This document shows, in pieces, positions 10,202-64,000 of a stretch of 64,000 nt of DNA; the stretch's first letter is position 1, and each line of letters opens with the position of its first letter. The translations under genes were made by a program, and so were the position numbers. The stretch spans positions 1 through 64,000 of the forward strand of contig NZ_MLCO01000069.1 in assembly GCF_001982615.1 (NCBI RefSeq). Direction: 5' to 3'. The notes below the pieces were generated by a model. The model searched no databases. It saw only the letters and a list, made by a program, of their open reading frames with translations, and had not been told where the DNA came from. The DNA comes from Teichococcus deserti. Its GTDB lineage: Bacteria; Pseudomonadota; Alphaproteobacteria; Acetobacterales; Acetobacteraceae.

Positions 10202-10212
10202 GCGCTCTCCCG

Positions 10213-10233: not shown

Positions 10234-10241
10234 ACCTTCCA

Positions 10242-11946: not shown

Positions 11947-11954
11947 GCGGCGTC

Positions 11955-12578
11955 TCACTCCTCGGCGGGGGTCAGGATGCCGGCCGGCGCGGCGAGCGCG
12001 CGGGCCAGGTGGCGGGTGGCGGCGGCAAGGTCCAGCTGCGCCGTCGCCTGCGGGCCCAGCGCCGCCACCGCCTGCAGGAACAGCAGCGTGTTGGAGGCGT
12101 CGGCACGGCCCTGGACCCGCGCCAGCGGCGAGTCGTAGGTCAGCCGCACCTCGCGCCCGTCCAGCAGCAGCGGCGGCACCTCGCCGCGGCGGCGCAGGAT
12201 CGCCAGGCAGCGGGCGACCAGCGGCGTCAGCAGCTCGGCCTGCAGCCGGCCATAGGTGGCGCCCAGCAGGCGGGCGGTCTCGGCACCGCGCTCCAGCACC
12301 TCGGTCGCGGTCATGCTGGGCTGGCGCGGGGCGGACAGCCGGTCGGCCAGCAGCGCGGTGCGGATCCGCGTGCGCAGGTCGGTCAGCACCAGCTGCGAGA
12401 TGTCGAAGTTCCCCGGCGCCGCCAGCGGCGTCAGCCCGGCCGAGCCCGGCGCCTTCGGGATGATGGCGCCCGGCACCAGCTGGACGGTGGCCGGGTTCAG
12501 CACGCCGTCATCCTCGGCCTGCCAGATGCCGGTCGCCGCGATCGACGCGTTCTTCAGCACCAGCTCCACCACCTTGTT
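11955..12578 (-). pseudogene. Element A portal (head-tail connector), C-terminal half, severed by element B
   Basis: About 206 codons in frame, starting abruptly at the left junction of element B and reading VELVLKNASIAATGIWQAED, then PGAIIPKAPG, a long helical wing (RIRTALLADRLSAPRQPSMT, ATEVLERGAETARLLGATYG) and a C-terminal tail. This is the second half of podoviral head-to-tail connecting proteins. The first half lies 45 kb away at 57652-58454. Joining 58454-57652 to 12570-11955 gives 1419 nt, exactly 473 codons including the stop, reading DIRTANKVVELVLKN across the seam. The fragment has no start of its own except a GTG created at the junction, so it is unlikely to be functional while element B is in place. 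Confidence 0.9.
12571..12578. other. attL core of element B
   Basis: ACCTTGTT is shared exactly with 57652-57659, and the bases on both sides differ. On the left it continues into portal sequence, on the right into AT-richer phage sequence 140 bases before the integrase. Short cores of this kind fit large serine integrases. The rebuilt attB has imperfect inverted arms CACCACC and GGCGGTG around TTGTT. Confidence 0.85.
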
Positions 12579-12717
12579 TCTTTTAGTTCGCAGCCCTGTG
12601 TCTGTTGCCTTTTCAGTGCGTTAAGGATACTTCAGCACAAAGCACAAGCCTGTGTATTTGCTGCTCTGCCGGGTAGAAGCTAGGGAGCTTATTCCGGATT
12701 CAGAACGGATTAGAGTG

Positions 12718-14490
12718 ATGAAACGTATTGCCTTCTCCTACATGCGGTTCTCCTCGCCAGAGCAGGCACGCGGCGACAGTCTTCGGCGTCAGATGCAGAA
12801 GGCTGAGGAGTACGCTGCGCAGCAGGGCTGGGACTTAAATCGCGATCTGCGGGATGAAGGTGTCTCCGCATACAGCGGCGCTAACCTGAAAGGCGCGTTC
12901 GGCGGCTTTCTCAGAGAAATTGAGAGCGGCAACGTTCCGCGCGGAAGCATCCTGATTGTCGAGTCGCTCGACCGTCTGTCCCGTGCTCATCCACTTGACG
13001 CGCAGGCTCAGTTCCACGTTCTGCTAAAAGCTGGCATCGAGATCGTCACCCTTACCGACAGGCGGCACTACACCTGGGAGAGCGTAGCAAAAGAACCAAC
13101 TCTACTTCTTGGTTCCATCATGGTCATGATGCGCGCCCATGAGGAGAGCGCAGTTAAGAGCCAGCGCATCAGGGAGAGTTGGGCCAACAAACGCGCTCGC
13201 ATGACTGAGCATAGGGATAGCCCCCTCACCGCCGTATCTCCCAAGTGGTTAAAATGGAATGCTGAGGCAAAGAAGTGGGACCTAGTTCCAGACCGAGTCG
13301 CTGTGCTGCGTCGCATCTACAACATGACCGCCGAGGAGGGTCTCGGCATGGCGACGATAGCCAAGATCCTTAACCGCGAGGGGGTCCCCACCTTCACCGG
13401 TCGCACGCTCATCGAAGGTGTCACCCCTGGCTGGCAGCCAGCCACAGTGGGTCAGCTGTTGCAGCGACGGAGTGTCCTAGGTGAATTCCAGCCGCGCATC
13501 TCCGTCGCCCCCGGCAAGTTCAAACCCGACACGTCCGTGCCTGTCATCCGGGACTACTTCCCCCAGGTGATAAGCTTCGACCTGTTCAACCGGGTCCAGG
13601 CCGTTCGCCTGCAGAACGACAAGACCGGCAGCGGCCGCAAGGACACGCGGCACGGAAACATCTTCCGAGGCAAGGTCTTCTGCGCCGAATGCGGCTCTGT
13701 CGCGCGCTCCCGGTACGGCAAACCCCTGAAGAGCGGCGACCAGTACAACTACTATGTGTGTGCCGGGGCTCAGCGCAGTGCCGGGGAATGCACTAACAAG
13801 ACGCACATCGATATCGACGTTATCGAGCAGGCGGTGTTCCAGGGCCTGAGGGCACGTCTCCAACTGGTGAAGAGCAAGCGCACCAATGGGGCCGAGGTCG
13901 AGAAGATCGCCGAGCAGCTGGCAGCCCTGGGGGAAGAGCACGGTCGCAAGCTTCGCCGCTTCGACACGCTCAGCGAGATGCTGGACGAGGAAGAAAGCGA
14001 GTCCATCCGCAAAGCTTACCGCGAACTTAGCCGCGAGCTTGATGGCTGGGACGCTCGGCGTGCCGAGCTGGAGAAGCGCCTCTCTGTAGCGCAAGGCTCC
14101 GGAACCATTGGCGAGATGATCGCAGAGGCGGATGCCATCATTGCGGAGGCTAGGAGCACCGACCGAGAGGTACGGCTACAGGCGCGCAACCGCCTCATGG
14201 TCTTCATGGCTTCGATCATCGGCCGGATCGACATTTACCCGGATAGAACGGCTCACGTTGTCCTGGCCGACAACAGCTTCCAATTTAACGTGGTCAAGGG
14301 CCAACCCACCGAATTGGCTTGGAAGCTCGACGGAGCAGAGGAATGGACCGTGCTCCGGGCGGACTACACCCATGCGACGCTGACTGAGGCGGATGGTGAG
14401 GCCGGCCTCCGCCGCCCGAGGGCGCACACCGGCTCCTACAAGAGGGCCGCGAACAGCTGGCCCTACCGACGGTCTGACGCGGCCGACTGA
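12718..14490 (+). CDS. int: Large serine recombinase (prophage integrase)
   Basis: 590 residues from ATG 12718. The N-terminal resolvase domain (~1-150) opens MKRIAFSYMRFSSPEQARGD, with Ser12 the expected nucleophile two residues after Arg10; VESLDRLSR and the E/R helix follow. Residues ~170-290 form the recombinase DNA-binding domain (TMAEEGLGMATIAKILNREG with TFTGR). A zinc ribbon uses Cys322, Cys325, Cys348 and Cys358. Residues ~390-480 form a charged coiled-coil insertion like the one controlling synapsis in phiC31-type integrases. It would catalyse attP x attB joining through 2-bp staggered cuts and, with a directionality factor, excision. Position at the end of the element, reading inward from attL, fits. 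A longer in-frame start at 12652 adds an unlikely leader. Confidence 0.95.
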   Translation: MKRIAFSYMRFSSPEQARGDSLRRQMQKAEEYAAQQGWDLNRDLRDEGVSAYSGANLKGAFGGFLREIESGNVPRGSILIVESLDRLSRAHPLDAQAQFHVLLKAGIEIVTLTDRRHYTWESVAKEPTLLLGSIMVMMRAHEESAVKSQRIRESWANKRARMTEHRDSPLTAVSPKWLKWNAEAKKWDLVPDRVAVLRRIYNMTAEEGLGMATIAKILNREGVPTFTGRTLIEGVTPGWQPATVGQLLQRRSVLGEFQPRISVAPGKFKPDTSVPVIRDYFPQVISFDLFNRVQAVRLQNDKTGSGRKDTRHGNIFRGKVFCAECGSVARSRYGKPLKSGDQYNYYVCAGAQRSAGECTNKTHIDIDVIEQAVFQGLRARLQLVKSKRTNGAEVEKIAEQLAALGEEHGRKLRRFDTLSEMLDEEESESIRKAYRELSRELDGWDARRAELEKRLSVAQGSGTIGEMIAEADAIIAEARSTDREVRLQARNRLMVFMASIIGRIDIYPDRTAHVVLADNSFQFNVVKGQPTELAWKLDGAEEWTVLRADYTHATLTEADGEAGLRRPRAHTGSYKRAANSWPYRRSDAAD

Positions 14491-17346: not shown

Positions 17347-17492
17347 GCAGGAGGCGATAGCAGCGGTCGCAGAAGGGACGGATGCCTCGCCTAATGTCCT
17401 CAACGGCTGCCACAACGCACCCCCTCAAATTCCTAAAGTTGCATGAGCTGGACAGACAGTGTTCAAGTGAGAAAATTTTGGTGCGAGGATCC

Positions 17493-18698
17493 ATGTTCGG
17501 CTTTTTTTCTAGCAGACGAAATAGAATTATAGATTCGTACTTGCTAGCAATGATCCGGTCGGGTAAGCAAGAAATCGATGTTCCCGAATTATATTTCGAA
17601 GCTGCATGCCGTTATGCTCTAGATAATGGAGGCAAGCTTTATGACGACATGCGTGACTCTATTATCTTTGATAAAGTTTTTCATGGAGAAAATTACTCGA
17701 TTTTTTTTCACATTGGCCGAAGAGGCAAAGGAACAAACATCACCATCAACAAGCAGCCGTCAGCTTACGACATAGTCCACGAAGATATTCTTGCGACCGT
17801 GGAACGGGGCAAACAAGCTATTGCCCAAGGCCGCGCCAAAAATCGAACGAATCAAGCAGACGCGGACCCGCGAAGCTCGTCTGCACTTGCTGAGGCCACT
17901 CGTGCTGAGGCCACTCGTGCTGAGGCCGCTCGTGTTGAGGCCGCTCGTGTTGAGGCCGCTCGTGCTGAGGCCGCTCGTGCTGAGGCCGCTCGTGCTGAGG
18001 CCGCTCGTGCTGAGGCCGCTCGTGTTGAGGCGGCTCGTGTTGAGGCGGCTCGTGTTGAGGCGGCTCGTGCTGAGGCCGCTCGTGTTGAGGCCGCTCGTGT
18101 TGAGGCGGCCCGTGTTGAGGCGGGTCGTGCTGAGGCGGCTCGTGCTGAGGCCGCTCGTGTTGAGGCCGCTCGTGTTGAGGCGGGTCGTGCTGAGGCGGCT
18201 CGTGCTGAGGCGGCTCGTGCTGAGGCGGCTCGTGCTGAGGCCGCTCGTGTTGAGGCCGCTCGCCGTGAGCAGCGTCAAATACATGCCGAGCATCCCGCAT
18301 CCGCGCCTACGCAATCAGCTTCAGTTTTCCGCCACCACGTTTTGGAAAGCCTTCGCAGCCGCAAGGTAACAAAGTTCGAGTTGGCCGCAGCGCAGGAGTT
18401 CCTTAGCTTCTTTGCCGAACGTGCAACACCAGTGCCGCCCAAGATAGAGGAGCATGACGCACGTCTGATCTGCTTCGGCTTTTTCGACCTCAACGGTACG
18501 GGCATCATTCTAACGCTAGCGGTGCTAGTCGGTAATGAGGCGACCATCTACGTCGCTGGAACCTTGCCTGTGCCTCAGGGGGAACTTCCTACGAGTTTCC
18601 TCAGGGCAAATGCGCAAGAGCTCTCCGCATTTTTGGAAGATAGATTCTCCGAATTTCGAGACTCTGTTGTTGTGCACATCGTCGATCGGAAAGGCTAG
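17493..18698 (+). CDS. Alanine-rich pentapeptide-repeat coiled-coil protein
   Basis: 401 residues in three parts. Residues ~1-110 are AT-rich in sequence and encode a compact domain (MFGFFSSRRNRIIDSYLLAM ... YSIFFHIGRRGKGTNI). Residues ~134-258 are 25 copies of a five-residue unit E-A-A/T/G-R-A/V encoded by a 15-bp tandem repeat, predicted to be one long charged helix. The C-terminal ~140 residues form a folded domain (KVTKFELAAAQEFLSFFAER, RLICFGFFDLNGTGIILTLA). ATG 17493 is chosen because GAGG precedes it at good spacing and base composition changes there; a start at 17382 would add 37 residues. Such rods often act as spacers between domains. No family is recognised. Confidence 0.7.
   Translation: MFGFFSSRRNRIIDSYLLAMIRSGKQEIDVPELYFEAACRYALDNGGKLYDDMRDSIIFDKVFHGENYSIFFHIGRRGKGTNITINKQPSAYDIVHEDILATVERGKQAIAQGRAKNRTNQADADPRSSSALAEATRAEATRAEAARVEAARVEAARAEAARAEAARAEAARAEAARVEAARVEAARVEAARAEAARVEAARVEAARVEAGRAEAARAEAARVEAARVEAGRAEAARAEAARAEAARAEAARVEAARREQRQIHAEHPASAPTQSASVFRHHVLESLRSRKVTKFELAAAQEFLSFFAERATPVPPKIEEHDARLICFGFFDLNGTGIILTLAVLVGNEATIYVAGTLPVPQGELPTSFLRANAQELSAFLEDRFSEFRDSVVVHIVDRKG
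17892..18266 (+). repeat. 25-copy 15-bp tandem repeat (coding)
   Basis: The unit GAGGCCGCTCGTGCT and close variants repeat in phase from 17892 with period 15. Most variation is confined to three sites (GCT/GTT, GCC/GCG, CTC/GTC/GCC-type changes), so units differ mainly as Ala/Val in the fifth residue. The repeat has no stop codon in several frames on either strand. Confidence 0.97.
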
Positions 18699-44546: not shown

Positions 44547-45662
44547 ATGAATCCAAGCAACGTCAGAAAGCCACGCCTTCGGGTGATTGTGGATGGAGCT
44601 GAGGTAGCGGCAATTAGCGCCGAGGTCACTAACAACAACTTCTTCCAAGCCGACGCGTGGCAAATTGATTGCGCACTGTTCGCCGACTTCCGCTATGGCA
44701 TTCAGTGGTGGGATACACGAACGGGCAAGCCCATCGAGATAGCTATGGGCTTTGAAGTCTCCGGTTCAGTCAGCTGGACAACGCTGATAACCGGTACCGC
44801 AGACCTGGCCGACTACGACATTGATGCAGGTATCGTCACCCTCAGCGGCCGCGATTACACGTCCAGGCTGATTGACCATAAGACGACAGAAACCTACCAA
44901 AACATGAGTGCCAGTGCCATCGTGCAGAAGCTGGCTGCTGCGGTTGGCATGACAGCTGATGTGACACCAACGCGCGGCAATGTTGGTCGCTTCTACGATC
45001 AGAACACCACGCACCACAGTCAAAGTACGGTGGGTCAGACACAGACCGCTTGGGACATGGTCGTCTTCCTGGCACGTCGCGAAGGCTACGATGTTTGGGT
45101 AACAGGAACCACCATCCACTTCCATCCGGCCGGGGCCAGCACCGAACAGCCTCGCATCATCCGTGTGGATTTGCCGACCTTCACTCACCCTAGCCTGCCA
45201 GTTGCCAGACACGCTCCGAGCGAAGTTTCTCGACTGCGGCTTAACCAGCGAGAGCACCTCGCCCGTGATGTGAAAATCGTTGTTAGCAGCTTCAACAGCC
45301 GTACCGGGCGACGCATTGAACGCAGCTACCCGAGCGCTGACCGCCGGGTGCGCAGCACGTCACAGGGCCAGCAGGTCACGCTGTACGAGTTTCAATTGCC
45401 GGATGCGACCGAAGAGCAGCTCCTGCAGGAGGCACAGCGTAAATACCTTGAGATCATCCAGCACACCCGAGAGGTCAGCTGGGAGGAACCAGGCGAGCTG
45501 CTCGTCAACCCACGCCGGAAGGTGCTGCTATCCGGCGATCTGGGTAGCTATGCCCAGGAGTACTTTGTGGACTCTGTGACCCGCCGAATACGGACTGATG
45601 GAGGCTTCACTCAGGAGGTGCGAGCCAAAAATAAAGCACCAAGCCAAGAGGAGCCGCAGTGA
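44547..45662 (+). CDS. Baseplate hub protein (gpD/late control-like)
   Basis: 371 residues. LRVIVDGAEVAAISAEVTNN, WTTLITGTADLADYDIDAGI, VTLSGRDYTSRLIDHKTTET, and the GRDYTSRL motif are signature elements of the phage D-like hub family. IVQKLAAAVGMTADVTPTRG is the usual helix linking the two barrels. It forms the trimer hub above the spike. The stop overlaps the spike gene's GTG start. Confidence 0.88.
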   Translation: MNPSNVRKPRLRVIVDGAEVAAISAEVTNNNFFQADAWQIDCALFADFRYGIQWWDTRTGKPIEIAMGFEVSGSVSWTTLITGTADLADYDIDAGIVTLSGRDYTSRLIDHKTTETYQNMSASAIVQKLAAAVGMTADVTPTRGNVGRFYDQNTTHHSQSTVGQTQTAWDMVVFLARREGYDVWVTGTTIHFHPAGASTEQPRIIRVDLPTFTHPSLPVARHAPSEVSRLRLNQREHLARDVKIVVSSFNSRTGRRIERSYPSADRRVRSTSQGQQVTLYEFQLPDATEEQLLQEAQRKYLEIIQHTREVSWEEPGELLVNPRRKVLLSGDLGSYAQEYFVDSVTRRIRTDGGFTQEVRAKNKAPSQEEPQ

Positions 45663-46688: not shown

Positions 46689-47816
46689 ATGTCACAGCTA
46701 CCTTACTCAACGCACGACCAGTTTGTAGAAGCGGCAGTCGCTTACATCCGCGCCACCAATCCAAGCTTCAACAGCTTCTCCGATGGCGACCTCCTTCTAG
46801 AGATCATCCGCTCCTCAGCGCATGAGAGCCAATGGCTCCAGTACATTGCCATTCAGCTGCTCAAGCAGACCCGGCTCTCCACCAGCGAGGGCAACGACAT
46901 CGACACCTTCCTGGCCGACTACGGCCAGGCACGGCTCCCAGCCACCTACGCATCAGGCAGCGTTCTCTTCGCTCGCTATGTGCCAGCGGCCCTCGCCTCC
47001 GTCCCGGTCGGAACCATCGTCAAAACCCAGGACGGCGAGCAGAGCTACATTGTCACAGCTGACAGCGAGCACAGCGCCTGGGTACCAGCAAGCCAGAGCT
47101 ACGCCATTCCTCCCGGTATCACGGGGCTACAGATCCCCGTACGGGCTACCCTGCCGGGCAGTGGGGGCAATGTAAGCTCCGGAGCCATTACCCTTATCAG
47201 CAGCGCCCTAGGGGGCGTGGACACGGTGACTAACCTGGTCCCCCTGGCCAATGGCATTGACGCTGAGAGCGATGAAGCCGCCCGACAGCGCTTCCCCGAC
47301 TACATTAACAGCCGAAGTTTGGGCACTCTCCGTGCCATAGGAAGTGCCATAGCGAACGTCCAGCAGGGGCTAAGCTACAGCTTTGCTGAGAACACCTTGC
47401 CTAACGGCAGTGAGCGTGCGGGCTTTGTCTCGATCTATGTGGATGATGGGACTGGCGACCCTGCCCCTGAGCTGCTGAACCGCATCTACCAGGTGGTGGA
47501 TGATGTACGTCCCCTCACCACCTACTTCGCGGTGCTCAGCCCGAACGTGGCGGCCGCGACCATCTCCATCACTCCCACCATCCTCCCCGGCTTCAATGCC
47601 CTCGAGGTGCGTAACGCCGTTAGCTTGGCCGTTACTTCCTACGTCAATGGCCTCGGGATGGGTGTGCCTCTTCGCTTTACCAACCTCGTGGCAGTCGCCC
47701 GCCAGGCGCACCCTGGCATCGGGTACCTGGAGGAGATCAAGGTCAACAACGGCTCCAGCAATCTAGGCGGGGCTACCAACCAAACAGTGCGCGTTGTCTC
47801 ACTGGCGGTGAACTAA
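46689..47816 (+). CDS. Baseplate J-like wedge protein
   Basis: 375 residues. The gpJ pattern is visible: SDGDLLLEIIRSSAHESQWL, TSEGNDIDTFLADYGQARLP, then VPVGTIVKTQDGEQSYIVTA, VRATLPGSGGNVSSGAITLI, GIDAESDEAARQRFPDYINS and the final GVPLRFTNLVAVARQAHPGI. It is complete and builds the wedge periphery with gpI. The stop is followed one base later by the next start. Confidence 0.9.
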   Translation: MSQLPYSTHDQFVEAAVAYIRATNPSFNSFSDGDLLLEIIRSSAHESQWLQYIAIQLLKQTRLSTSEGNDIDTFLADYGQARLPATYASGSVLFARYVPAALASVPVGTIVKTQDGEQSYIVTADSEHSAWVPASQSYAIPPGITGLQIPVRATLPGSGGNVSSGAITLISSALGGVDTVTNLVPLANGIDAESDEAARQRFPDYINSRSLGTLRAIGSAIANVQQGLSYSFAENTLPNGSERAGFVSIYVDDGTGDPAPELLNRIYQVVDDVRPLTTYFAVLSPNVAAATISITPTILPGFNALEVRNAVSLAVTSYVNGLGMGVPLRFTNLVAVARQAHPGIGYLEEIKVNNGSSNLGGATNQTVRVVSLAVN

Positions 47817-50473: not shown

Positions 50474-50748
50474 TGGCATGTAGCCCCTGTGGAGTTGCCC
50501 GCTTCTACGCTGGCAACCTCCTACTAGCCCTAGACCGCGTGGCTAACGCAGTTCTCCTCGGCTCAGCCAATGAGACAGTCAGCCAAAGAGCGGCCCGTGC
50601 ATCTCAAGCAGGCAATCGGATAGCCGCAGCATTCTGCGGCTTCCTGAACCTCTTTGACCGCGGACATTGCGAAGACAGCTTGGACCCGAGCACTGGCACC
50701 AATGCCATGGAGCTGTGGGAATGGACCAGCCGGGAGAAAGATGACTAA
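50473..50748 (+). CDS. Conserved small phage protein (LD.LANA..G....T.S.R type)
   Basis: 91 residues. The pattern NLLLALDRVANAVLLGSANE, TVSQRAARASQAGNRIAAAF, CGFLNLFDRGHCEDSLD is a familiar small cysteine-containing phage protein that follows tail genes in many tailed phages. Its role is not established. It has TGATG overlap upstream and overlaps the next start by eight bases, so the three genes 50015-52984 are one translational unit. Confidence 0.65.
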   Translation: MACSPCGVARFYAGNLLLALDRVANAVLLGSANETVSQRAARASQAGNRIAAAFCGFLNLFDRGHCEDSLDPSTGTNAMELWEWTSREKDD

Positions 50749-52984
50749 GAACACTTACGTCTACATCGTTGGAGGCATTGTCACCGACCTTCTAGTATCA
50801 TCGGTAAGTCCAGGATCATCTTGGATGCTGCTTACTGACCTACGAGTGCGCAAGGGCTGGCTCTACAGCAACGGCGTCTTCACTGACCCCGTCCCCGGCG
50901 GCACCCCTGATCTTCCTGACACCAACCCAACGCGCTCGTCTGAGATCTACTCCGAGCTAGCGCACCAGGATGCAGAGCGCTCAGCATCGAGTGCCCTAGT
51001 GTCTCTCCAATACGCCAAGATCGGCGTGAAGGGCGACAAGGGCGACACAGGCGACCAAGGACCAGCCGGCCCCCGGGGAAACATCGGCCCGCCGGGCATT
51101 CAGGGCATTCCCGGCCCTCAGGGCATCGAAGGCGTTGTGAATGCCGTCCAATACGAAAATCTCCTAGCTCGTCTGACGAACGCCGAGGCGGCGATCACAG
51201 CCCTTCAGGTTGGTCTAACTGTTCCCAAGCCAACCATCTCGAACCAGAGCTTTTCCAAGCCAGCCAACCTGGCGGCTAACGGCACCATCGGCACCCTCGT
51301 GCTCGGCGGCGGCGCTCCAACAATCATCACCAGTAGTGATGACCGCGTGAAGGTCTCCCTAGCCGGTGTGCTGACGCTCAGCGCAGCAATGGCTAACCCG
51401 ACGCAGGCGACCGTCATCACGCTGACTATCACGGTAACAAACGGCGGCGGCAGCAACGCAGCCACGATCACCGTCACCCTCACCGCTGTGGTTGCTAAGC
51501 CTGTCATCACAGCCAATCAGAGTTACACCAACCTGGCGAATGTTGCCGCAGGCGCAGTGCTGGGTACAGCCATCGCGACAACAGGCGGTGCACCAGCAAG
51601 CTTCACGAGCAGCGATGTCCGCGTGGCAGTTAGCTCAGCCGGTGTTGCCAGCCTGGTGACAGCCTTCGCCAACGTCTATCAGAGCGTCACGATCTCGGTA
51701 AACATCACTGCAACCAACGCAGGCGGCAGCGACACAAAGGCGGTTACCTTCGTCTTCAACGGCGTGGCTATCACCGACGCAGCACGACTGAACACACTTC
51801 AGAAGCTGGATTGGGAAGCTTACGCACAGCGCGACACCTATGCCAACACGCCAGTGTACGGCCACATGGAGACCATCGGCTCCATCACCTACTGGCCGCT
51901 CATCTGGGCTGGCATGAAGGAAGGCACCCCGGATGAATGGCAGCAGAATGACCCGCAGATTGCCTTGCAGGACATCTACGCGCTTCTGCGCGCCAATGCT
52001 GCTGACTTCGCTGCGGCGCAGTTTTGGTACGACGTATGGATTGCAGACGTTGCACCCTTTGTCGGCGGTTCGAGCAGTTCGTCCAACCTCAAGATGGTCC
52101 CCTACTTTGAGAACAACGTCACGGCCGGAACCCCGCCATTTGAGCAGTTCGTTGGCAAGCAGGTTGCTGGCACGCAGGCACATACCGATAAGGGCGACAC
52201 CAACTACACCAACGTCAACTGGTTCCTCACCGATGCAGCAGGCGGCCATGGGCGTGAAGTGTATGTCGTCTTCCCGCTGCTTCCAAATGTCGAAGGCACA
52301 AACTACAGCGATCCAGTCAATCTAGCTCGCCTCGCCACAGCGGCATCGGGTGGCTACAACTCGCAGTATGTGACCGCAGCTAACAACATTATCTCAGCGA
52401 TCAATCAGAACAACGCTGCCGGCCTCGTCCAGCAGGATAAGATTGATATCCGCACAGGCTGGGAGTTCAACGGCGACTGGATGTCGTGGCGTGCGCAGGG
52501 CCGACAGGCAAACTTCATCGCGGCCTGGAGGAATCTCGTAAACGCCTTCCGCTCTGTCACTGGTGGCAATCGCTTTGAGTTCACTTGGTGTGGCAACTAC
52601 GGACAGGGCTATGACCCATCGACAGCTTACCCAGGTGATGCCTACGTGGATAAGGTCGGCGTCAACTTCTACTACTACAGCTATGTTGGCCTCTCCACCG
52701 ATCCACAGCAAGCCTTCAACACCATCCGCACTATGGATTGGGGCCTAGACTGGTGGTCGGGCTTTGCTCAGTCGCGCGCAAAGCCGCTCGTGATTCCTGA
52801 GTGGGGTGCAGCAGGTTACGGACCTGACGCCGACTCTGCCGCATTCATCACCTACAGCCTGGACTGGATGCGCGCCAACTCCGTCCAGTATGAAGGTTAT
52901 TGGGATCAGCCAGGAACGCCGGAAGAGATCACTCGCAGCGATCGTGTGCTAGCACAGGCTGCCTACAAGGCGGGCCATTCTTAA
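50741..52984 (+). CDS. Fibre-linked GH26-like glycosidase with collagen-like and Ig-like segments
   Basis: 747 residues. Domains in order: small N-terminal domain (~1-90); collagen-like Gly-X-Y run (GDKGDTGDQGPAGPRGNIGP onwards) at ~100-140; coiled coil; two beta-sandwich Ig-like repeats (~165-255 and ~258-345); then a (beta/alpha)8 glycosidase from ~350 to the end. The enzyme part has GWEFNGDWMSW with Glu575 as the probable acid/base, and LVIPEWGAAGYG with Glu687 as the probable nucleophile, the GH26 arrangement (mannanase or related endo-glycanase). TWCGNYGQGYDPSTAYPGDA and VDKVGVNFYYY also match clan-A GH26 folds. It should be a virion-associated depolymerase that degrades a host capsule or wall glycan. 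Substrate is not predictable. Confidence 0.75.
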   Translation: MTKNTYVYIVGGIVTDLLVSSVSPGSSWMLLTDLRVRKGWLYSNGVFTDPVPGGTPDLPDTNPTRSSEIYSELAHQDAERSASSALVSLQYAKIGVKGDKGDTGDQGPAGPRGNIGPPGIQGIPGPQGIEGVVNAVQYENLLARLTNAEAAITALQVGLTVPKPTISNQSFSKPANLAANGTIGTLVLGGGAPTIITSSDDRVKVSLAGVLTLSAAMANPTQATVITLTITVTNGGGSNAATITVTLTAVVAKPVITANQSYTNLANVAAGAVLGTAIATTGGAPASFTSSDVRVAVSSAGVASLVTAFANVYQSVTISVNITATNAGGSDTKAVTFVFNGVAITDAARLNTLQKLDWEAYAQRDTYANTPVYGHMETIGSITYWPLIWAGMKEGTPDEWQQNDPQIALQDIYALLRANAADFAAAQFWYDVWIADVAPFVGGSSSSSNLKMVPYFENNVTAGTPPFEQFVGKQVAGTQAHTDKGDTNYTNVNWFLTDAAGGHGREVYVVFPLLPNVEGTNYSDPVNLARLATAASGGYNSQYVTAANNIISAINQNNAAGLVQQDKIDIRTGWEFNGDWMSWRAQGRQANFIAAWRNLVNAFRSVTGGNRFEFTWCGNYGQGYDPSTAYPGDAYVDKVGVNFYYYSYVGLSTDPQQAFNTIRTMDWGLDWWSGFAQSRAKPLVIPEWGAAGYGPDADSAAFITYSLDWMRANSVQYEGYWDQPGTPEEITRSDRVLAQAAYKAGHS

Positions 52985-53038: not shown

Positions 53039-54487
53039 CTATGCACTCAGGAAATCGATGAGATCCTGATCCGTTCGAAGAAGCTTTTCGCTTGGCACAC
53101 CGAGGGCCAGCGCGAACTCGACACTGCGAACAGTCAATGACTCGTTGAGACTAAGATCGAACGCGGCATGGACAAGATCGCCTAAGCGATCAAACTCTCC
53201 GTCGATCCGATGGATAAGCTTTGCAGATGCTTCATCCAATTCAGCTATCATCGCCTGGTTACGCTGCTCAATCTGGCCCGCGGCATTTGCAACATGACTA
53301 CGTAGAAGATGCGAAAGGACCTTGCCCGCAACGCTGCCCACGAGTGCACCTATCACCGGCACCGGGATAACCACCTGGCTACCAACGGCGCAAAGACCCA
53401 CAATTCCTACGTCGGAGCAGACCAACGTCCCTTGATCGAGAAGCTGATCTAAGGAGATCTTCCGTTCTTTGTAGGCTAGGACCAAAGGGTAGAGCGCCTT
53501 TGCTGCGGCAACAAAGCTGTTTGCTAAGGGCGCAGACGTTTTAGCGAAGTTTGTTAGCCCATACAGAGCGGCACCGGCGACGGCGCCTACGGCACCGTCT
53601 TTTAGCGTTTTGACACCGACTTCTTCCCAGTCTGCCCGGGTAAATTGCCCCTTGAATGGATTTTTCTTTTGTTCCCGGTGCTTACGAAGCAGTTCCGTAG
53701 CGAATCCAACCGTCGCGCCGATAGCGGCGGCTTTGCCTACTACCTTGGCACCGTCCATCCAACCAGGCTGATGCTGAGCAGAGATCTCATCACGCCGCTT
53801 ATCGTTGTCGTCAACAAGTTCGTCTTCATGCCGGGAGATCGTCTTGATGACCTGTCCCTGCTGCACTTCAGCATAGGTGGAGAGACTAGGCTTAACTGCT
53901 TCACAGAAGGGCTTTCCTGCTGCCTGCTCAATCTCTCTGATATTTCGAGAGATAGCTGCGATCGTTTTCGCGTTGAGGCCGTCGACGTGCTCACCCCGGC
54001 ACACCTTCAGCATAACAGCATACTGATCTTTGGGGACGTGGTAGAAGCTATCATCACGCCCGAACGTCTTGTACTTGGCCAAATGGCCCAGCACGGCAGA
54101 CAGACTATTGTTTACGCCGTTGATGAATTTCGACTGAACCTGCTTGTTGTTGAGTATATAATCTCCGGGCGCAGTGCGGCTCAGATTGTCAATGGAGGCT
54201 GAGAAGGGCAATTGGTTGAAAACATCCCGAGCACGGCGTACGCCGACCTCGACACGTTCAGCAATCTCGCCATGCTTGGTGGCTACGCTTCCAAGGATTG
54301 TTGAGGGTTCGGCAACGAATTTGCGAACGGTAGCTGTCTCTGCAAGGGCTGCCTCCAGCAATTCATTCTGCTGGCTAAGCGCTGCTTTTTCAGCAGCCAT
54401 TCGCGTCACGTTCGCCACATCGACGACTGCGGCCTGCAGCAGTTCGGCAGTGGCCTTCGGAAGCTCGTTCATTTTCAGATCGGACAT
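53039..54487 (-). CDS. Unknown protein with glycine-zipper-type membrane region; gene 2 of an antisense cassette
   Basis: 482 residues. Residues ~1-240 are helical and soluble (AALSQQNELLEAALAETATV, LNAKTIAAISRNIREIEQAA). A hydrophobic, Gly/Ala-rich region follows in two blocks: AKVVGKAAAIGATVGFATEL and LKDGAVGAVAGAALYGLTNF, then a stronger one (VVIPVPVIGALVGSVAGKVL). The C-terminus is helical again (MIAELDEASAKLIHRIDGEF). The layout resembles proteins that oligomerise in membranes. It starts with a TAATG overlap from the upstream gene, so the two are coupled. Opposite orientation to the late genes suggests expression in the lysogen. No family is recognised. Confidence 0.65.
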   Translation of the reverse strand: MSDLKMNELPKATAELLQAAVVDVANVTRMAAEKAALSQQNELLEAALAETATVRKFVAEPSTILGSVATKHGEIAERVEVGVRRARDVFNQLPFSASIDNLSRTAPGDYILNNKQVQSKFINGVNNSLSAVLGHLAKYKTFGRDDSFYHVPKDQYAVMLKVCRGEHVDGLNAKTIAAISRNIREIEQAAGKPFCEAVKPSLSTYAEVQQGQVIKTISRHEDELVDDNDKRRDEISAQHQPGWMDGAKVVGKAAAIGATVGFATELLRKHREQKKNPFKGQFTRADWEEVGVKTLKDGAVGAVAGAALYGLTNFAKTSAPLANSFVAAAKALYPLVLAYKERKISLDQLLDQGTLVCSDVGIVGLCAVGSQVVIPVPVIGALVGSVAGKVLSHLLRSHVANAAGQIEQRNQAMIAELDEASAKLIHRIDGEFDRLGDLVHAAFDLSLNESLTVRSVEFALALGVPSEKLLRTDQDLIDFLSA

Positions 54488-55350
54488 TAGATCGCCTTGA
54501 GATCCACGTTTTTGACAAGAAGCTCGCCCATGCTTCGCACGTGGTTCACCATGGCCTTCATCATGTCCAACACATCTTCCGTCTGTCCGTGAGGTGTAGA
54601 GACCTTGTTTACGTCACGAAGGATAGTAAGCAGACGTATCAGCCCCTCTGCCGTGTTGTTCGTAAGTCTGTGAAGGCGCTCGATAGACGCCACTGACGCA
54701 TAGATGTAGCGGACCTCGGCTTCCACCTTCCGGCATCTCTCGTCCGCTTCTTTAGTCGCTTTGGCGTTGGCGCGGCGCATGTAGAGAATGCCGCCTGTGG
54801 CGGCCACACCGGCCAGCCCCAAGCCAACCGGTCCGCTCATCGCGAGCATTGCGGTTCCAGCAGCCATACCGCCGCCGCCAGCGGCGATGGCCCCACCACC
54901 TAGCCAAGCGAGCGCCGCCTTTGTAGCGGCGACACCGGTAAGTGCAGAGATCGCCGTCCCGGTAGAAGCAGTTCCGAACGTCGTTGCTACAGCCATCGCT
55001 GCCGTAGGGCCTAGCAGCGCGGTTATCGCACCAGCAGTGACGCCCGCGCCGGCGCCTGCAGCGGTTTTTACTGTCGCATCGCGCATCGACACATCAATGT
55101 CGATCAGAACGTCGGTGAATTTTGAGTAATTAATTTTGTACTGCTGCACCACCTTCTCAAAATCGACAGGCTTATTTCGCATGGTATTCACGTAATCTTC
55201 TACTTCACAGATTACGCGGTGAGCCTTGACCTTGCGTAAGTCATAAAGCTTCGTACAAGCCTCTACAGCTACTTCCGCAGCTTTGGCGTGATCATCGACA
55301 GATTTCTGCAAACGAGCTTTAGCGGCATTTAAGCTGTCTCGGTTGAGCAT
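54487..55350 (-). CDS. Unknown protein with long glycine/alanine-rich membrane hairpin; gene 1 of an antisense cassette
   Basis: 287 residues. Helical N-domain (AKARLQKSVDDHAKAAEVAV) to ~110, then ~95 residues of Gly/Ala/Thr-rich hydrophobic sequence (AGAGAGVTAGAITALLGPTA ... GGGAIAAGGGGMAAGTAMLA ... GPVGLGLAGVAATGGILYMR) able to form three or four membrane helices, then a charged coiled coil (KEADERCRKVEAEVRYIYAS). Such glycine-rich hairpins occur in apolipoprotein-L-like and other pore-forming bacterial proteins. Function unknown; candidate membrane-acting exclusion or defence protein. Overlaps the partner gene by one base. Confidence 0.65.
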   Translation of the reverse strand: MLNRDSLNAAKARLQKSVDDHAKAAEVAVEACTKLYDLRKVKAHRVICEVEDYVNTMRNKPVDFEKVVQQYKINYSKFTDVLIDIDVSMRDATVKTAAGAGAGVTAGAITALLGPTAAMAVATTFGTASTGTAISALTGVAATKAALAWLGGGAIAAGGGGMAAGTAMLAMSGPVGLGLAGVAATGGILYMRRANAKATKEADERCRKVEAEVRYIYASVASIERLHRLTNNTAEGLIRLLTILRDVNKVSTPHGQTEDVLDMMKAMVNHVRSMGELLVKNVDLKAI

Positions 55351-55705: not shown

Positions 55706-55864
55706 ATGCAAGCTGAACCCGTTGAGCGACGCCGACACCCAAGAGATCCCACTAATCCAATCACAATCGCCCAGGATGAAACCTACGCTGCACTCCGCCT
55801 TCTGAAGGAGACAACAGCGGCCAGCCTCATCGTGTTGCAAAACCTGTTTAAGGAACACCGATGA
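55706..55864 (+). CDS. Small protein before the holin-like gene
   Basis: 52 residues with AAAGGA upstream. It is charged and helical (MQAEPVERRRHPRDPTNPIT, then TYAALRLLKETTAASLIVLQ). It overlaps the next start by four bases (ATGA), so it is probably translated together with the membrane protein. No family is recognised; it could be a lysis regulator. Confidence 0.5.
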   Translation: MQAEPVERRRHPRDPTNPITIAQDETYAALRLLKETTAASLIVLQNLFKEHR

Positions 55865-56220
55865 TGGCAGATGATCTCTCCCCACTATTAGTGACGCTGC
55901 AAGGCATTCTGCCGCCGCATTGGTACGCTCTCCTACTGCTGCTAACACCGTTCGTTCTGCCTGCCTTCAGGCTGCTATCCGCAAAGTGGCAGAGCTGGAC
56001 TGACGGAAGCAGCAAGAGCAAGGATGCAGAGATCGACAGGCTCAAGAGCGAACTAGCCGATCAGCGTGAGTACGCTGCTAATCAAAGCGCCATGGTGCTC
56101 AAGCACGCAGATCAAACACTCCAGATGGCTGAAGCCTTCAAGAATGGCAGTGTGGCGATGACGGATTTCACGAATGCCGTCACGCAGATGATGACGAAGC
56201 TGAAGGAATCCGGCGGCTAA
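55861..56220 (+). CDS. Single-span membrane protein with coiled coil; holin or spanin-like candidate
   Basis: 119 residues. Membrane span at ~20-40 (HWYALLLLLTPFVLPAFRLL), then WQSWTDGSSKSKDAEIDRLK and SELADQREYAANQSAMVLKH, a charged coiled coil. This arrangement fits i-spanins and some holins. It lies after the tail module in the same direction, followed by two hairpins, so is the most probable lysis gene of element B; no endolysin is recognised nearby. Confidence 0.5.
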   Translation: MMADDLSPLLVTLQGILPPHWYALLLLLTPFVLPAFRLLSAKWQSWTDGSSKSKDAEIDRLKSELADQREYAANQSAMVLKHADQTLQMAEAFKNGSVAMTDFTNAVTQMMTKLKESGG

Positions 56221-57319: not shown

Positions 57320-57610
57320 ATGTACGAAGAAGGCACGTTTGGTGACGATGCCCTTCATGGCATCTTCTACTCGGTGCAGTGTTTAGGGTGTCGCCATCAA
57401 CGCTACGTCTCAGCTCGTCGTCTTACACTGGCCGGGTTTGGCAATCAGCAAGTTGTAGGTAGCCAACCACGGTGGAGGTGTCCCCGATGTGACAGCAGAG
57501 GTGCTTCCATCGTGAGGTCAGGGCAATGGTGCGGGCCAAGTTGGAGCAAACCCGCTGACTACGCTGAGACCGTTGAGGACCGTATCGCGAAGTTGACTAT
57601 CCATCCCTAA
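57320..57610 (+). CDS. Small zinc-ribbon protein beside attR; recombination directionality factor candidate
   Basis: 96 residues. Two CxxC pairs, CLGCRHQRYVS and RWRCPRCDSRG, are separated by ~30 residues and form a zinc ribbon. It is the last gene of element B, ending 41 bases from the attR core. In serine-integrase phages the directionality factor is a small protein with no common sequence, so position beside an attachment site makes this a candidate; it could equally be a regulator. No family is recognised. Confidence 0.5.
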   Translation: MYEEGTFGDDALHGIFYSVQCLGCRHQRYVSARRLTLAGFGNQQVVGSQPRWRCPRCDSRGASIVRSGQWCGPSWSKPADYAETVEDRIAKLTIHP

Positions 57611-57651
57611 GCACACTGGGATCGGACTGTGCGCAAACTACATAGAAGGTT

Positions 57652-57659
57652 ACCTTGTT
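57652..57659. other. attR core of element B
   Basis: ACCTTGTT, identical to 12571-12578. On the phage side it is preceded by AAGGTT, making a near-palindrome AAGGTTACCTT in the rebuilt attP; on the host side it continues into the portal gene. Confidence 0.85.
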
Positions 57660-58454
57660 GGCGGTGCGGATGTCGGGCAGCGCCTTCATCACCGGGCCGC
57701 GGCCATAGACCTCGCCCGGCGCCTTCATCCAGCGGAAGGCGATGAAGGGACTGTCGTTGAAGCGGCCGGCCGCCAGCGGCACCGCGCGGCCTTCCCAGTC
57801 CAGCACGGCCAGGTAGCCGCAGCCGGTCCGCTCCGGCCACACCGCCTCGACCACGCGGTGCTTGCCCGGGCTTTCTTCAGTGCCCTCGATGCCGGGGGGC
57901 AGCACGGCGTCGGGGTAGCGGCGGCGCAGCGTCGCGGCATCCAGCGCCGCGGCGCGATAGACGGTGTCGAGACGGCCACTCTCGCCCTCCTCCAGCACCG
58001 CCTCGCGCAGCGGCACGGCGGTGAAGCGCAGCGCGGACAGGCCACCCGGCGGCGCCTCCTCCACCAGCAGCACGCCGCTGCCGGCGACGACCAGATCGAG
58101 GAAGGCCTGGTGCATCTCGACCGCGAAGTTGGAGCGGTCGAGATGGCCCTGCAGCGTCTCCGCCGCCGCCTCCAGGGCCGCGGCCGCGGCGGGGCCCTGG
58201 GCGCTTTCAGCCAGGGCGCGCGACGGGGCCAGGCCGAACCAGCGCGACCAGGGCGGCGTCAGCTCGGCCAGCAGGCTGGCGGCCAGCTGCTCGGCCGCAT
58301 CGGGGGCGGTCGCGTCATAGAGCTGCGCGCCGCCGGCGCCGGGCGTGCCGGACAGGACATGGTCGTAGCAGTCCTGCCAGACGCCCTCCCACGGGCGGCG
58401 CCGGGCCAGCGCCGCGGCATGGCGCGGCAGCAGGGTCTCGGGGGTCAGGGTCAT
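57652..58454 (-). pseudogene. Element A portal (head-tail connector), N-terminal half, severed by element B
   Basis: 267 codons from ATG 58454 (MTLTPETLLPRHAAALARRR). PWEGVWQDCYDHVLSGTPGA, LLAELTPPWSRWFGLAPSRA, LDRSNFAVEMHQAFLDLVVA, GSGVLLVEEAPPGG, then FNDSPFIAFRWMKAPGEVYG, RGPVMKALPDIRTANKV are standard blocks of podoviral head-tail connectors. At the junction the frame runs into phage sequence and stops after ~17 foreign residues at 57597. The truncated product lacks the wing and crown helices, so it cannot form a working portal. Frame and seam with 12570-11955 are exact. Confidence 0.9.
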
Positions 58455-58458
58455 GCGC

Positions 58459-58722
58459 TCACTCCCCGAGCAAGGTCTTGCGCGCGCCGGCCAGGCCGGG
58501 GGCCAGCGCCGGGGCTGTCGCCGCGGGCGGCTTTTCCTCCAGCACGCCGCGGGCGGAGGTCGCGATGGTGCCGGCAAGTCCCCGGCGGGCGCGCAGCTGG
58601 TTGTCCGCCCGCGCGGTCTGCGCCGCGGCCTCCGGGCTGGGCGAGGCGACGACGGGCGTCGGATCGGCGGTGGCGGTCGGCGCGACGACCACCGGCTTCG
58701 GGGCACGGAACAGGCCACCCAT
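58459..58722 (-). CDS. Element A small protein before portal
   Basis: 87 residues starting MGGLFRAPKPVVVAPTATAD. A Pro/Ala/Val-rich disordered N-half precedes RARRGLAGTIATSARGVLEE, a short motif seen in small phage proteins next to portal genes. It ends four bases before the portal start. No activity is inferred; it may be a minor head protein. Confidence 0.55.
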   Translation of the reverse strand: MGGLFRAPKPVVVAPTATADPTPVVASPSPEAAAQTARADNQLRARRGLAGTIATSARGVLEEKPPAATAPALAPGLAGARKTLLGE

Positions 58723-60729: not shown

Positions 60730-62655
60730 TCAGGCCTTCGCCTTCATCGCTTCCAGAATCGCTTCCGCGTCCCACCCGGCCGGGCAGACCAGGAAGCTCC
60801 CGTCTTCCAGCGGCACCGTCGCCAGCCCGGTGTCCTCATAGGCGCGGAGCAGGCCGGGACCGACCTGCCAGAAGGCGTGGCCGACGCCGTTGCGCTCGCA
60901 GAGGTCGCGGAAGCGCCACATGGCTGCGATGCGGGCGCCGTCATCGCCGGCCGGGTCGCCCAGGCCGACCCACAGATTCTCCAGCTTCAGGAAGGCGAAG
61001 CCGGCGCCGCGGCCGCCATCGGCGAAGAGGGCGGCGTCGGCGGTCGTCGGCACGCGGCCGCCGAGCACGGCCAGGCGGGTGCGAGCGGCCTGGTCGAAGT
61101 CGCTTTCGCGGATGCGGGCGGGGCGCAGCAGGCGGAGCGCGGCGACCAGCAGGAGGACGCCGCAGAGGCCGACGGCGAAGCGCAGCGTGTCCGGCGCCTG
61201 CTCCGAGAAGGGCACCGACCACCAGGCCTCGTTCGCCACCGGCTCGCGCCAGCCGATGCGGGCCAGCGCCAGGGCAGCGGTGGCGCTGGCGGCCAGCGGG
61301 ATCAGCGTGGCGACGGTCAGCGGCTCGCCGGTCAGCCGGGCGTCGCGGTAGAAGGCGGTGCGCATGCAGGCGACCAGCCCGGCGAGCGCCAGGAAGGCAC
61401 CGGAGATGAACCAGGGTTCCCCGCGCAGCAAAGCGGTGATGCCGCCGAGCATGAGCAGGACGATGCCGCTGACCCAGGCGATGCGCAGCCGGCGCAGCAT
61501 GCCATAGGCCGCGACCAGCAGCAGCGAGCCCAGCACGGAGGCGGCGAAATGGCTGGCCAGCGCCGCCCATTCGCCGGCCCATTGCGCCAGGCGGGCGCCG
61601 CGCGCCGGCAGCGCGCCAATGAAGATCAGCGCGACGCCGGCCAGCCCTGCCAGCCCCGCCATGGCCGGGCCTTCCAGCGCGTCGGTCACCCGGGTCTCGG
61701 GACCGAGCCGGCCAAGGAGGTGGCGGCGCTGGTTGATCTCGAAGCCGGCGAAGAGGGCGCCGGCCAGGAACAGCGGCACGATGTAGTAGTAGAAGCGGAA
61801 CAGCAGCAGCGCGCTGATCACCTGCGGCGCCGGGATATAGGGCTGCAGCCCGACCAGGATCGCCGTGTCGAAGACGCCGAGCCCGCCCGGCACATTGGCG
61901 GCCAGGCCCGCCGTGTAGGCGGCGAGATACAGGCCGACGAAGCGCGGGAAGGTCAGGCCCTCCGCCGGCGGCAGCAGGGCGTAGAAGATCATCGCGGTGA
62001 CCGCGACATCGACCGCGGCCAGCAGCGTCTGGGCCAGCGCCATGCGGAAGCGCGGCAGGTCGATGCGGTGGCCGAAGGCGGTGAAATGCGGGACGAAGCG
62101 CGCCAGCAGCAGGTAGCTGGCGACGACGCAGAGCATCGCCACGCCGATCAGCTGCATCGCCCAGGCCGGCACATGGCCGGTGGCGCCAGGGATGATGTCC
62201 GGGTCGTGGATCAGGATGGCGCCGCCCAGCGCCATGCCGCCCAGGCCGAAGGTCAGGCTGGTGAAGGCGATGACCTTGGCGACCTCGCCCGGGGTCAGGC
62301 CCCAGGCGGCGTAGAAGCGGTAGCGGACGGCAGCGCCCGAGACTGCGGCGAAGCCCAGGTTGTGTGCCAGGGTATAGGCGCAGAAGGAGGCCAGCGAGGT
62401 GCGCAGGTAGCTGACCGGCTTGCCGGCATAGACCGAGCCCAGCCGGTCGTAGATGGTCAGCACCGCATAGGCCAGCAGGGTCCAGCCGGCGGCGATCCAC
62501 AGCGTGCGGGCCGGCACCGCCTCGATCGCCGTCCGCACATCGGCCAGCGACAGGTGGCGGAACTCGCGCTGCACCACGTAGAGCGCGCCAAGCAGCAGCA
62601 GCAGCCCGAAGACGGTGGGCCCGTGCCGCTTCAGCGCGCCAAGCACGGGGCTCAC
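60730..62655 (-). CDS. MprF-like membrane protein with a short C-terminal DUF2156 segment
   Basis: 641 residues from a GTG overlapping the lysyl-tRNA synthetase stop (GTGA). About twelve membrane segments; the flippase-like first part shows VSYLRTSLASFCAYTLAHNL, YRFYAAWGLTPGEVAKVIAF, VPGGLGVFDTAILVGLQPYI, all typical of MprF/UPF0104. After the membrane region only ~140 residues remain: DAALFADGGRGAGFAFLKLE, NLWVGLGDPAGDD, MWRFRDLCERNGVGHAFWQV. This covers roughly the first lobe of the aminoacyl-lipid synthase domain (DUF2156, normally ~300 residues); the second lobe is missing. It is either a naturally short form or a truncation next to element A. MprF adds lysine to phosphatidylglycerol from Lys-tRNA; activity here is doubtful. 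Confidence 0.75.
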   Translation of the reverse strand: MSPVLGALKRHGPTVFGLLLLLGALYVVQREFRHLSLADVRTAIEAVPARTLWIAAGWTLLAYAVLTIYDRLGSVYAGKPVSYLRTSLASFCAYTLAHNLGFAAVSGAAVRYRFYAAWGLTPGEVAKVIAFTSLTFGLGGMALGGAILIHDPDIIPGATGHVPAWAMQLIGVAMLCVVASYLLLARFVPHFTAFGHRIDLPRFRMALAQTLLAAVDVAVTAMIFYALLPPAEGLTFPRFVGLYLAAYTAGLAANVPGGLGVFDTAILVGLQPYIPAPQVISALLLFRFYYYIVPLFLAGALFAGFEINQRRHLLGRLGPETRVTDALEGPAMAGLAGLAGVALIFIGALPARGARLAQWAGEWAALASHFAASVLGSLLLVAAYGMLRRLRIAWVSGIVLLMLGGITALLRGEPWFISGAFLALAGLVACMRTAFYRDARLTGEPLTVATLIPLAASATAALALARIGWREPVANEAWWSVPFSEQAPDTLRFAVGLCGVLLLVAALRLLRPARIRESDFDQAARTRLAVLGGRVPTTADAALFADGGRGAGFAFLKLENLWVGLGDPAGDDGARIAAMWRFRDLCERNGVGHAFWQVGPGLLRAYEDTGLATVPLEDGSFLVCPAGWDAEAILEAMKAKA

Positions 62656-64000
62656 GCCGCGGGGCTCTCCACGCCCGCCGCGGCCGCGGGTGGGCGGGCC
62701 AGCGCCTCCTGGATCAGCCGCACCGTCTCCGGGATGCCGTAGGCGGCGGCCAGGCTGCCGAAGCGTGGACCCTGGTCGGCGCCGACCAGCACCTGGTAGA
62801 GCGCGTTGAACCAGCCGCGGGCGACACCCGGCGAGCCGTCCTTCATCAGCTGGATGAAGGGCTCGCGCCGGCCGGCGTCATAGACATCGACCTGGATGCG
62901 CTCGGCCTGGGGCAGGCCGGGGGGCAGCGCCTCGATCTCGGCCTGGTGGGCCAGCAGCAGCTCGACCAGCGCCTGGAAGCAGGGACGCTCCTCCGGCGTC
63001 GGTGCGCGCGGCGTCAGCGTGGGCAGGATGAAGTCGCGCGAATAGGCGACGGCATAGTCGACCAGCTGGGCCAGCAGCGGCTGGTTCTCCGGCGTGGCGC
63101 CCGGGGCGTAGTTGCGGACGAACTGCCACAGCCGCGCCGAGGTGTCGGCGGCGGAGACGGTGGCCAGGTTCATCAGCATGCCGAAGGAGAGCGGCGGCTC
63201 CGGCGTGTTGGGCGCCTCGCCGGCATGGATGTGCCAGGCGGGGGAGGCCGGGTCGGCATTGGCGCGCAGCTTCTCGCGGGCGGCCAGATACTCGTCGGTG
63301 GCGCGCGGGATGACGTCGAAATGCAGGCGCTTCGCCCGGCCCGGCTGCTGGTACATGAAGTAGGACAGGCTTTCCGGGGGCGCGTAGGTCAGCCATTCCT
63401 CGATGGTCAGGCCATTGCCCTTGGACTTGCTGATCTTCTGGCCGCCGGCGTCGAGGAACAGCTCGTAGGTCATGCTGACCGGCGGCTCGGCGCCCAGCAC
63501 CCGGCAAATGGCGGAGGACAGCTTGACGCTGTCGATCAGGTCCTTGCCCGACATCTCGTAATCGACGCCGAGGGCGAACCAGCGCATCGCCCAGTCGGCC
63601 TTCCACTGCGCCTTGACGGCGCCGCCGGTGACGGGCGTCTCGAAGCGCTCGCCGCTTTCCGGGTCGCGCCAGATCACGGTGCCGTCCTGCGGGCGGGTTT
63701 CGTCCATGGGCACCTGCATCACCACCCCGGTCTTGGGATGGACCGGCAGGAAGGGCGAGTAGGTCGCGCGGCGGTCGGGGCCGAGGGTCGGCAGGATCAC
63801 CTGCCGGACTTCCTCATGCCGCTCCAGCATGCGCAGCAGGGCGGCGTCGAAGCGGCCCGAGCGGTAGTAGTCGGTGGCCGAGGCGAATTCGTATTCGAAG
63901 CCGAAGGCGTCGAGGAAGGCGCGCAGCCGGGCGTTGTTGTGCGCGCCGAAGCTGTCATGCGTGCCGAAGGGATCGGGGATGGCGGTCAGCGAGCGGCCCA
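62652..64000 (-). CDS. lysK: Class I lysyl-tRNA synthetase, N-terminus beyond the window
   Basis: 449 codons in frame to the right edge. IPDPFGTHDSFGAHNNARLR, AFLDAFGFEYEFASATDYYR, SGRFDAALLRMLERHEEVRQ and KTKxxGK-region blocks, with the catalytic loop KISKSKGNGLTIEEWL, identify the archaeal-type class I enzyme that alphaproteobacteria use instead of class II LysRS. The HIGH motif lies outside the window. It charges tRNA-Lys in the cytoplasm. The last codons overlap the MprF-like gene, which in intact form uses Lys-tRNA. A shorter in-window ATG at 63830 is internal. Confidence 0.93.
   Translation of the reverse strand, partial: GRSLTAIPDPFGTHDSFGAHNNARLRAFLDAFGFEYEFASATDYYRSGRFDAALLRMLERHEEVRQVILPTLGPDRRATYSPFLPVHPKTGVVMQVPMDETRPQDGTVIWRDPESGERFETPVTGGAVKAQWKADWAMRWFALGVDYEMSGKDLIDSVKLSSAICRVLGAEPPVSMTYELFLDAGGQKISKSKGNGLTIEEWLTYAPPESLSYFMYQQPGRAKRLHFDVIPRATDEYLAAREKLRANADPASPAWHIHAGEAPNTPEPPLSFGMLMNLATVSAADTSARLWQFVRNYAPGATPENQPLLAQLVDYAVAYSRDFILPTLTPRAPTPEERPCFQALVELLLAHQAEIEALPPGLPQAERIQVDVYDAGRREPFIQLMKDGSPGVARGWFNALYQVLVGADQGPRFGSLAAAYGIPETVRLIQEALARPPAAAAGVESPAA

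Follow-up and report, generated by a model that had tools for sequence, protein, structure and literature searches.

SNIPE is described as a GIY-YIG nuclease anchored in the membrane; it cleaves the DNA of a phage while this is being injected, and it becomes toxic once off the membrane (PMC13190303). Zorya and Kiwa, discussed in the same paper, are likewise membrane-linked defences at phage entry (PMC13190303). The PDC systems of PADLOC are presented as unpublished candidates from Payne et al. (PMC11811056), and certain PADLOC candidates of other families, two other PDC candidates among them, were reported as inactive when tested (PMC12409345). Our literature search, which covered main texts, found no experimental test of one of these candidates, PDC-M09.

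We analysed a gene pair encoded in a 64,000-nucleotide stretch of Teichococcus deserti (contig NZ_MLCO01000069.1, hereafter the window). Gene A (54487-55350, minus strand) encodes a protein of 287 residues in which helical stalk segments flank a Gly/Ala-rich hairpin in the AlphaFold model. Gene B (53039-54487, minus strand) encodes a protein of 482 residues with a predicted soluble alpha/beta domain, followed by a glycine-zipper-like membrane region (residues 241-395, 53303-53767, minus strand) delimited by hydropathy and model helices. The two ORFs overlap in a TAATG stop-start (54485-54489, minus strand), where the last base of the TAA of A is the first base of the ATG of B. The original prediction of two coupled genes, antisense to their neighbours, was exact in coordinates, lengths and overlap, and in the ORF lists as read the plausible neighbours between 44.5 and 57.6 kb are all on the plus strand. 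Its description of the proteins also stands: A is Gly/Ala-rich at residues ~95-190, and B is hydrophobic at ~249-267, 321-339 and 350-394. A promoter and terminator scan gave one promoter-like site, within gene A, and no more than in shuffles.

Both proteins matched PADLOC-DB profiles almost from end to end: A matched PDLC04407 (PDC-M09A) over residues 1-283 (E 2.5e-91) and B matched PDLC04409 (PDC-M09B) over residues 11-480 (E 1e-166). Judged by these profile matches, the pair is a member of PDC-M09, a catalogued phage-defence candidate. The pair had been said to match no known structural or lysis family, and this is true of the window proteins. Neither reaches a family cut-off in Pfam or has a match in NCBIfam, and in PHROGs, searched without cut-off, B has no match and A has weak ones only (best E 2.3e-4 to an internal virion protein, followed by tape measures), over the Gly/Ala-rich part. 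We rejected cation efflux and other Pfam families as identities for B (best E 0.028, below the cut-off).

The pair is carried by a prophage (12571-57659, no strand assigned) with a gene at 12652-14490 that we take to be serine-recombinase-like. The same 8-bp word, a putative crossover repeat, occurs at 12571 and 57652, i.e. at both prophage ends, and the prophage seems to end ~2.3 kb past gene A. This prophage itself interrupts the portal (head-tail connector) gene of another prophage, which is podovirus-like and high in GC (3167-12578 and 57597-58718); the two portal pieces that flank it match adjoining stretches of the same phage records. The predicted location, with tail genes on one side and lysis genes on the other, is approximately correct. 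PHROGs matches identify a tail gene (44547-45662), a baseplate wedge gene (46689-47816) and a collagen-like tail fibre gene (50654-52984) on one side and, weakly (E 0.0028), an Rz-like spanin (55861-56220) on the other, all on the plus strand. The tail region had no match among phages by blastn. Two other ORFs of the window deserve mention: one of 438 residues (17382-18698) contains a long series of near-identical EAAR(A/V) repeats, and one at the right edge (62652-63830) matches positions 162-525 of the 528 of a lysine--tRNA ligase model, below the cut-off, and is incomplete or interrupted.

We then turned to the distribution of the pair. B was present in one of the 58 genomes of the relatives search, the window's own, and in four of the 398 genomes of its phylum, own genome included. 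Among 194 genomes of the phylum to which a Nostoc relative belongs, B had a match in 46, but at E <1e-100 in only two of them: the centre genome itself and G577, where the match is split in two. The remaining 44 matches cover parts of the C-terminal half of B only and were left out of the count. E. coli genomes gave no match to B by blastn, and 59 plasmid records matched it. A scan of genome contigs with a single protein gave nothing, and the alignment-based scan that followed confirmed 149 relatives. The 80 that were kept span cyanobacteria, Proteobacteria, Bacteroidales, Clostridia, lactobacilli, actinobacteria, Fibrobacter and Herpetosiphonaceae.

Across these distances the two genes stay together. 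In 78 of the 80 genome loci the gene immediately upstream of B is A, with a gap of -133 to 187 bp that is at most 30 bp in 67 of the 78. The exceptions are L050, with only a stretch resembling the last 18 residues of A, and L106; in a further locus (L074) B is broken into two ORFs. Since relatives at 23-46% identity retain this order and spacing, A and B are real genes. Their distances are also correlated (r 0.84 over 90 loci, against a maximum of 0.12 in 1000 permutations), in a set from which 13 duplicate or incomplete loci were removed and in which some near-identical loci were retained.

The alignment of B comprised 96 distinct sequences, window included, from ORFs no shorter than 400 aa with a profile E<1e-90. 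D109, Q118 and K120 are invariant in all 96. E77, H72 and G73 are found in all 95 rows having a residue there, and E80 in 94 of 95. The invariant residues form a putative catalytic motif, D109-x8-Q118-x-K120 (54128-54163, minus strand), within an N-terminal putative PD-(D/E)XK-like nuclease domain (residues 61-205, 53873-54307, minus strand). In PD-(D/E)XK enzymes, the D and the (E/Q)-x-K are placed on adjacent strands of an alpha-beta-beta-beta-alpha-beta core, and members of the superfamily are frequently without detectable sequence similarity. The AlphaFold model of B, built from 58 sequences, has a mean pLDDT of 84.4, with block means above 90 across residues 71-240. It shows a helix (71-90), three strands (97-98, 110-112, 115-119), a second helix (125-138) and a last strand (148-151), so that the alpha-beta-beta-beta-alpha-beta order is visible in its DSSP assignment, with a first core strand of only two residues. 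The residue pattern of the superfamily is present as well, with D109, Q118 and K120 beside or on the predicted strands 110-112 and 115-119. The model has a turn at 113-114, and D109 is therefore taken to face Q118; we infer that the two lie opposite each other, as in PD-(D/E)XK enzymes. Read from this model, the N-terminal domain would resemble a PD-(D/E)XK nuclease of the QxK form, and the larger protein of the pair looks more like a nuclease held at the membrane than like a pore. The Q in place of E could make the site weak or dead. The family itself was already catalogued; what is new, and testable, is to read B as a nuclease.

Fold and profile searches did not confirm the nuclease reading. 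Foldseek with the whole B model returned nothing at E<=0.001. We recognised no PD-(D/E)XK enzyme among the VIA-align rows for the same model, an absence that carries no inference. Against an alignment of Mrr the B domain reached 12.0, a score exceeded by at least 10 of 50 column shuffles. The domain profile had nothing significant among sequences of solved structures (best E 0.29), nor had full-length A and B. Pfam gave no nuclease family for the window B and, for 58 B proteins, none among the best 25 of the 118 families listed. VIA rows for the complex I subunit NDUFA11 (best Z 8.9 over 84 residues at an rmsd of 3.0 A, model residues 241-334) hint at a Tim17-like four-helix membrane part of B, which we do not claim because these rows are within the chance range that the tool gives for helical proteins.

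Some loci encode further B-like proteins near the pair: nearly the same protein ~37 bp behind B in two loci (L035:9450-11972 and L027:3471-5993), and another 2.4 kb from the pair in a third (L057:11753-13306). By reading, all three share the layout [H/G]G..AE + D ... x-K, and all have a glycine zipper; the residue before x-K is Q in L035 and L027 and S in L057, the latter counting against the nuclease reading. They match PDC-M09B with E-values of 1.5e-11 (L057) and 2.6e-4 (L035). The L035 protein has relatives in Escherichia records at ~63-71% identity, hypothetical or unannotated, and one in Lactococcus annotated as a glycine zipper family protein.

The model of A is all helical (mean pLDDT 75.9; below 50 at residues 99-110 and 150-183), with helices at 4-55 and 62-99, a hairpin (105-125 and 127-150), a long helix (188-250) and a last one (258-279). 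The hairpin region (residues 95-190, 54781-55068, minus strand) is the most conserved segment of A in the alignment: 39 of its 96 columns have one residue in at least 95% of the rows, and the mean majority-residue fraction is 0.78, versus 0.43 and 0.42 in the stalks. Such strong conservation is unusual for a simple anchor.

The original prediction held a pore-forming or membrane-depolarising system to be plausible here. The hairpin of A and/or the glycine zipper of B would then oligomerise on infection and depolarise the membrane in an abortive response, with the N-terminal domain of B as sensor or inhibitor. That the hairpin is by far the most conserved part of A is consistent with this, as are the stalk-plus-hairpin layout, the ClyA and AhlB rows in the fold lists, and the precedent of EsxX, a glycine-zipper toxin described as membrane-depolarising (PMC12744356). 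Yet fold searches with A (Foldseek, VIA) gave no significant match, to pore-formers or otherwise, and the ClyA/AhlB rows are weak (Foldseek E 0.2 or worse, VIA Z ~6), which the tool states to be chance level for helical bundles. Moreover, a pore leaves D109, Q118 and K120, kept in 96 of 96 sequences, unexplained, and these invariant polar residues lie in the putatively soluble, PD-(D/E)XK-like alpha/beta domain, which the original prediction had missed. We therefore disfavour the pore and regard it as unlikely.

A second alternative starts from the resemblance of A to dynamin-related proteins. The PADLOC model LeoBC is matched at E<=1 by all 13 A proteins searched, the strongest match having an E of 2.2e-9 and that of the window copy 6.2e-5; other models are touched by fewer, LmuB by up to three of the 13, PDC-S06 by two and ZorA by one. 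Genes for dynamin-type GTPases adjoin the pair in three mutually close loci (L063, L078, L084) and, twice, in a Lactococcus locus (L014). Both of the latter have the Pfam domains Dynamin_N and HTH_3; the others were linked to these two by phmmer. Residues 160-209 of A aligned with the hairpin of these GTPases with a probability of 95.8 and a score of 71.5; the best of 40 local shuffles reached 76.6 and 47.0. Given a biased composition and an alignment drawn from no more than five dynamin sequences, we hold this likeness to be suggestive. On the strength of that alignment, the hairpin of A may resemble the dynamin one.

A and B might accordingly be GTPase-less partners of the Eleos/Leo/DynA type that tether membranes or seal them and hold back lysis or injection, with the domain of B binding DNA or protein without cutting. 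Besides the LeoBC matches, the adjoining GTPase genes and the hairpin, this would agree with a bacterial dynamin pair (5oxf) as fourth VIA row for B (Z 7.0, 116 residues, 3.7 A), which suits a membrane-held nuclease equally, with IniA among the weak Foldseek rows for A (E 0.77), with two of 58 B proteins touching Pfam Dynamin-like_hel_bact (best 0.024), and with the delay of lysis attributed to DynA (PMC8844932). However, neither A nor B of the window has a GTPase family by Pfam, dynamin-type genes were detected by phmmer in only four of 108 loci, some with short flanks, and the fold rows are inside the stated chance range of the tool. LeoB was touched by two of 14 B proteins (best 0.024), and A aligned with two LeoBC-type proteins (hhalign) within the range of shuffles. 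We consider a guard of this kind distinctly unlikely. In two loci A carries an N-terminal extension of ~360-380 residues with no Pfam family (L085:6004-7995 and L108:6037-8001), which is possibly a sensor.

The surroundings of relatives bear on the function of the pair more generally. Nine loci of the viral collection, including the prophage of the window itself, have a relative of A. In L023, which from its translations is presumably a P2-like prophage, the pair is flanked by HTH repressor-like and NYN-like genes on its own strand and, on the opposite strand, by genes resembling gpD and a tape measure. In L022, which matches phage repressors by blastn, the pair opposes its nearest neighbours on both sides, with two ORFs on its own strand ~4 kb off, and lies between genes that we take to be NinG/antiterminator-like and, farther away, a presumed GH19-like endolysin. 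The predicted moron-like position is thus seen in the window and in two of the eight other viral loci, those examined. Homologues as virion components would speak against a defence role, and in the plasmid loci examined the listed neighbours of the pair include no phage structural genes. This is evidence against a virion part and, with the lack of PHROGs matches for B, leads us to disfavour a virion or lysis component.

We compared the neighbours of the pair with a matched control. Of 71 loci of at least 9 kb, 20 on long contigs were used, each with its nearest ORFs of 150-1299 aa (six at most), which gave 119 proteins; 119 ORFs far away on the same contigs served as control. At E<=1e-15 PADLOC families numbered 114 among the neighbours versus 15, all single-member, among the controls, a ratio that overstates the difference because families and not proteins are counted and one protein, e.g., one methyltransferase, can match many. 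The best 25 of the 114 include type I and type IV restriction, mads, PbeA, WYL, MzaE, HEC-01A and PDC-S31; among those 25, eight have two members and the rest one. In the 71 loci, a gene cluster that by eye we take to be of type I methyltransferase lies inside five, and a WYL-like regulator lies within 0.8 kb of the pair in three. PADLOC families are commoner beside the pair than in the control. The three Klebsiella plasmids examined (L010, L017, L018) each have the tellurium resistance (ter) operon a few kb away from the pair.

A plasmid- or prophage-borne membrane stress or maintenance module, in islands by chance, would fit the 46 Klebsiella records among the 59 plasmids with B, the ter operon near the pair in the three examined, and the standing of PDC systems as unpublished candidates (PMC11811056), two others of which were inactive in tests (PMC12409345), but is very unlikely given a spread scattered over phyla, the moron-like prophage position and the PADLOC families commoner nearby than in the control. 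The defence reading of the original prediction draws support from the same position and neighbours and from the PDC-M09 listing. We conclude that the pair is likely a defence moron, real and conserved.

A mechanism for PDC-M09 is suggested by the D-x8-Q-x-K motif, invariant in B, together with the dynamin-like hairpin of A. A and B would form a single inner-membrane complex, to which A would contribute a dynamin-paddle-like hairpin and a helical stalk, without GTPase. B would add a glycine-zipper anchor that crosses the membrane several times and, on what we infer to be the cytoplasmic side, a PD-(D/E)XK-like nuclease domain (E77, D109, Q118, K120). In the lysogen the nuclease would be kept quiet at the membrane. 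A disturbance of the membrane or the entry of foreign DNA would release it, and it would then cut the incoming DNA or, in a variant, host DNA in an abortive response. We tentatively favour such a membrane complex cutting foreign DNA at or after entry, SNIPE-like in action and not a SNIPE member, and put it a little short of an even chance; SNIPE is the precedent for such a strategy (PMC13190303). A bolder form, in which a GTPase-less dynamin-paddle protein gates a multi-pass membrane PD-(D/E)XK nuclease that cuts DNA crossing the membrane, convergent with SNIPE from cyanobacteria to clostridia and a new mechanistic class of prophage and plasmid immunity, is somewhat unlikely.

Compared with described systems, the pair is closest to PDC-M09: A and B match its models almost in full, adjacent and coupled, and we found no difference. 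To ClyA-type alpha pore-forming toxins A gives weak fold rows only. Like Zorya and Kiwa, the proposed complex would be membrane-linked and act at phage entry; none of their PADLOC models was matched by the window proteins at E<=1, and among the 13 A proteins one touched ZorA2 (0.0028) and one ZorA1 (0.2), which we take as chance between helical proteins. Towards Eleos/Leo (LeoA, LeoBC) point the weak match of A to LeoBC and the dynamin-type GTPases beside the pair in four relatives, but the window A and B are without GTPase by Pfam and B carries an alpha/beta domain instead. SNIPE (PD-lambda-1; DUF4041 and GIY-YIG) offers a parallel in action. The pair is placed outside it because neither DUF4041 nor GIY-YIG is among the Pfam matches of the window at E<=1; one A relative touched the PD-Lambda-1 model at chance level (E 0.29). 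SNIPE also differs in its nuclease type, its single-pass anchor and its single gene. The proposed pair would likewise hold a nuclease at the inner membrane and tell self from non-self by place. If this is true, DNA cutting at the membrane would have been arrived at via unrelated nuclease folds in widely separated bacteria.
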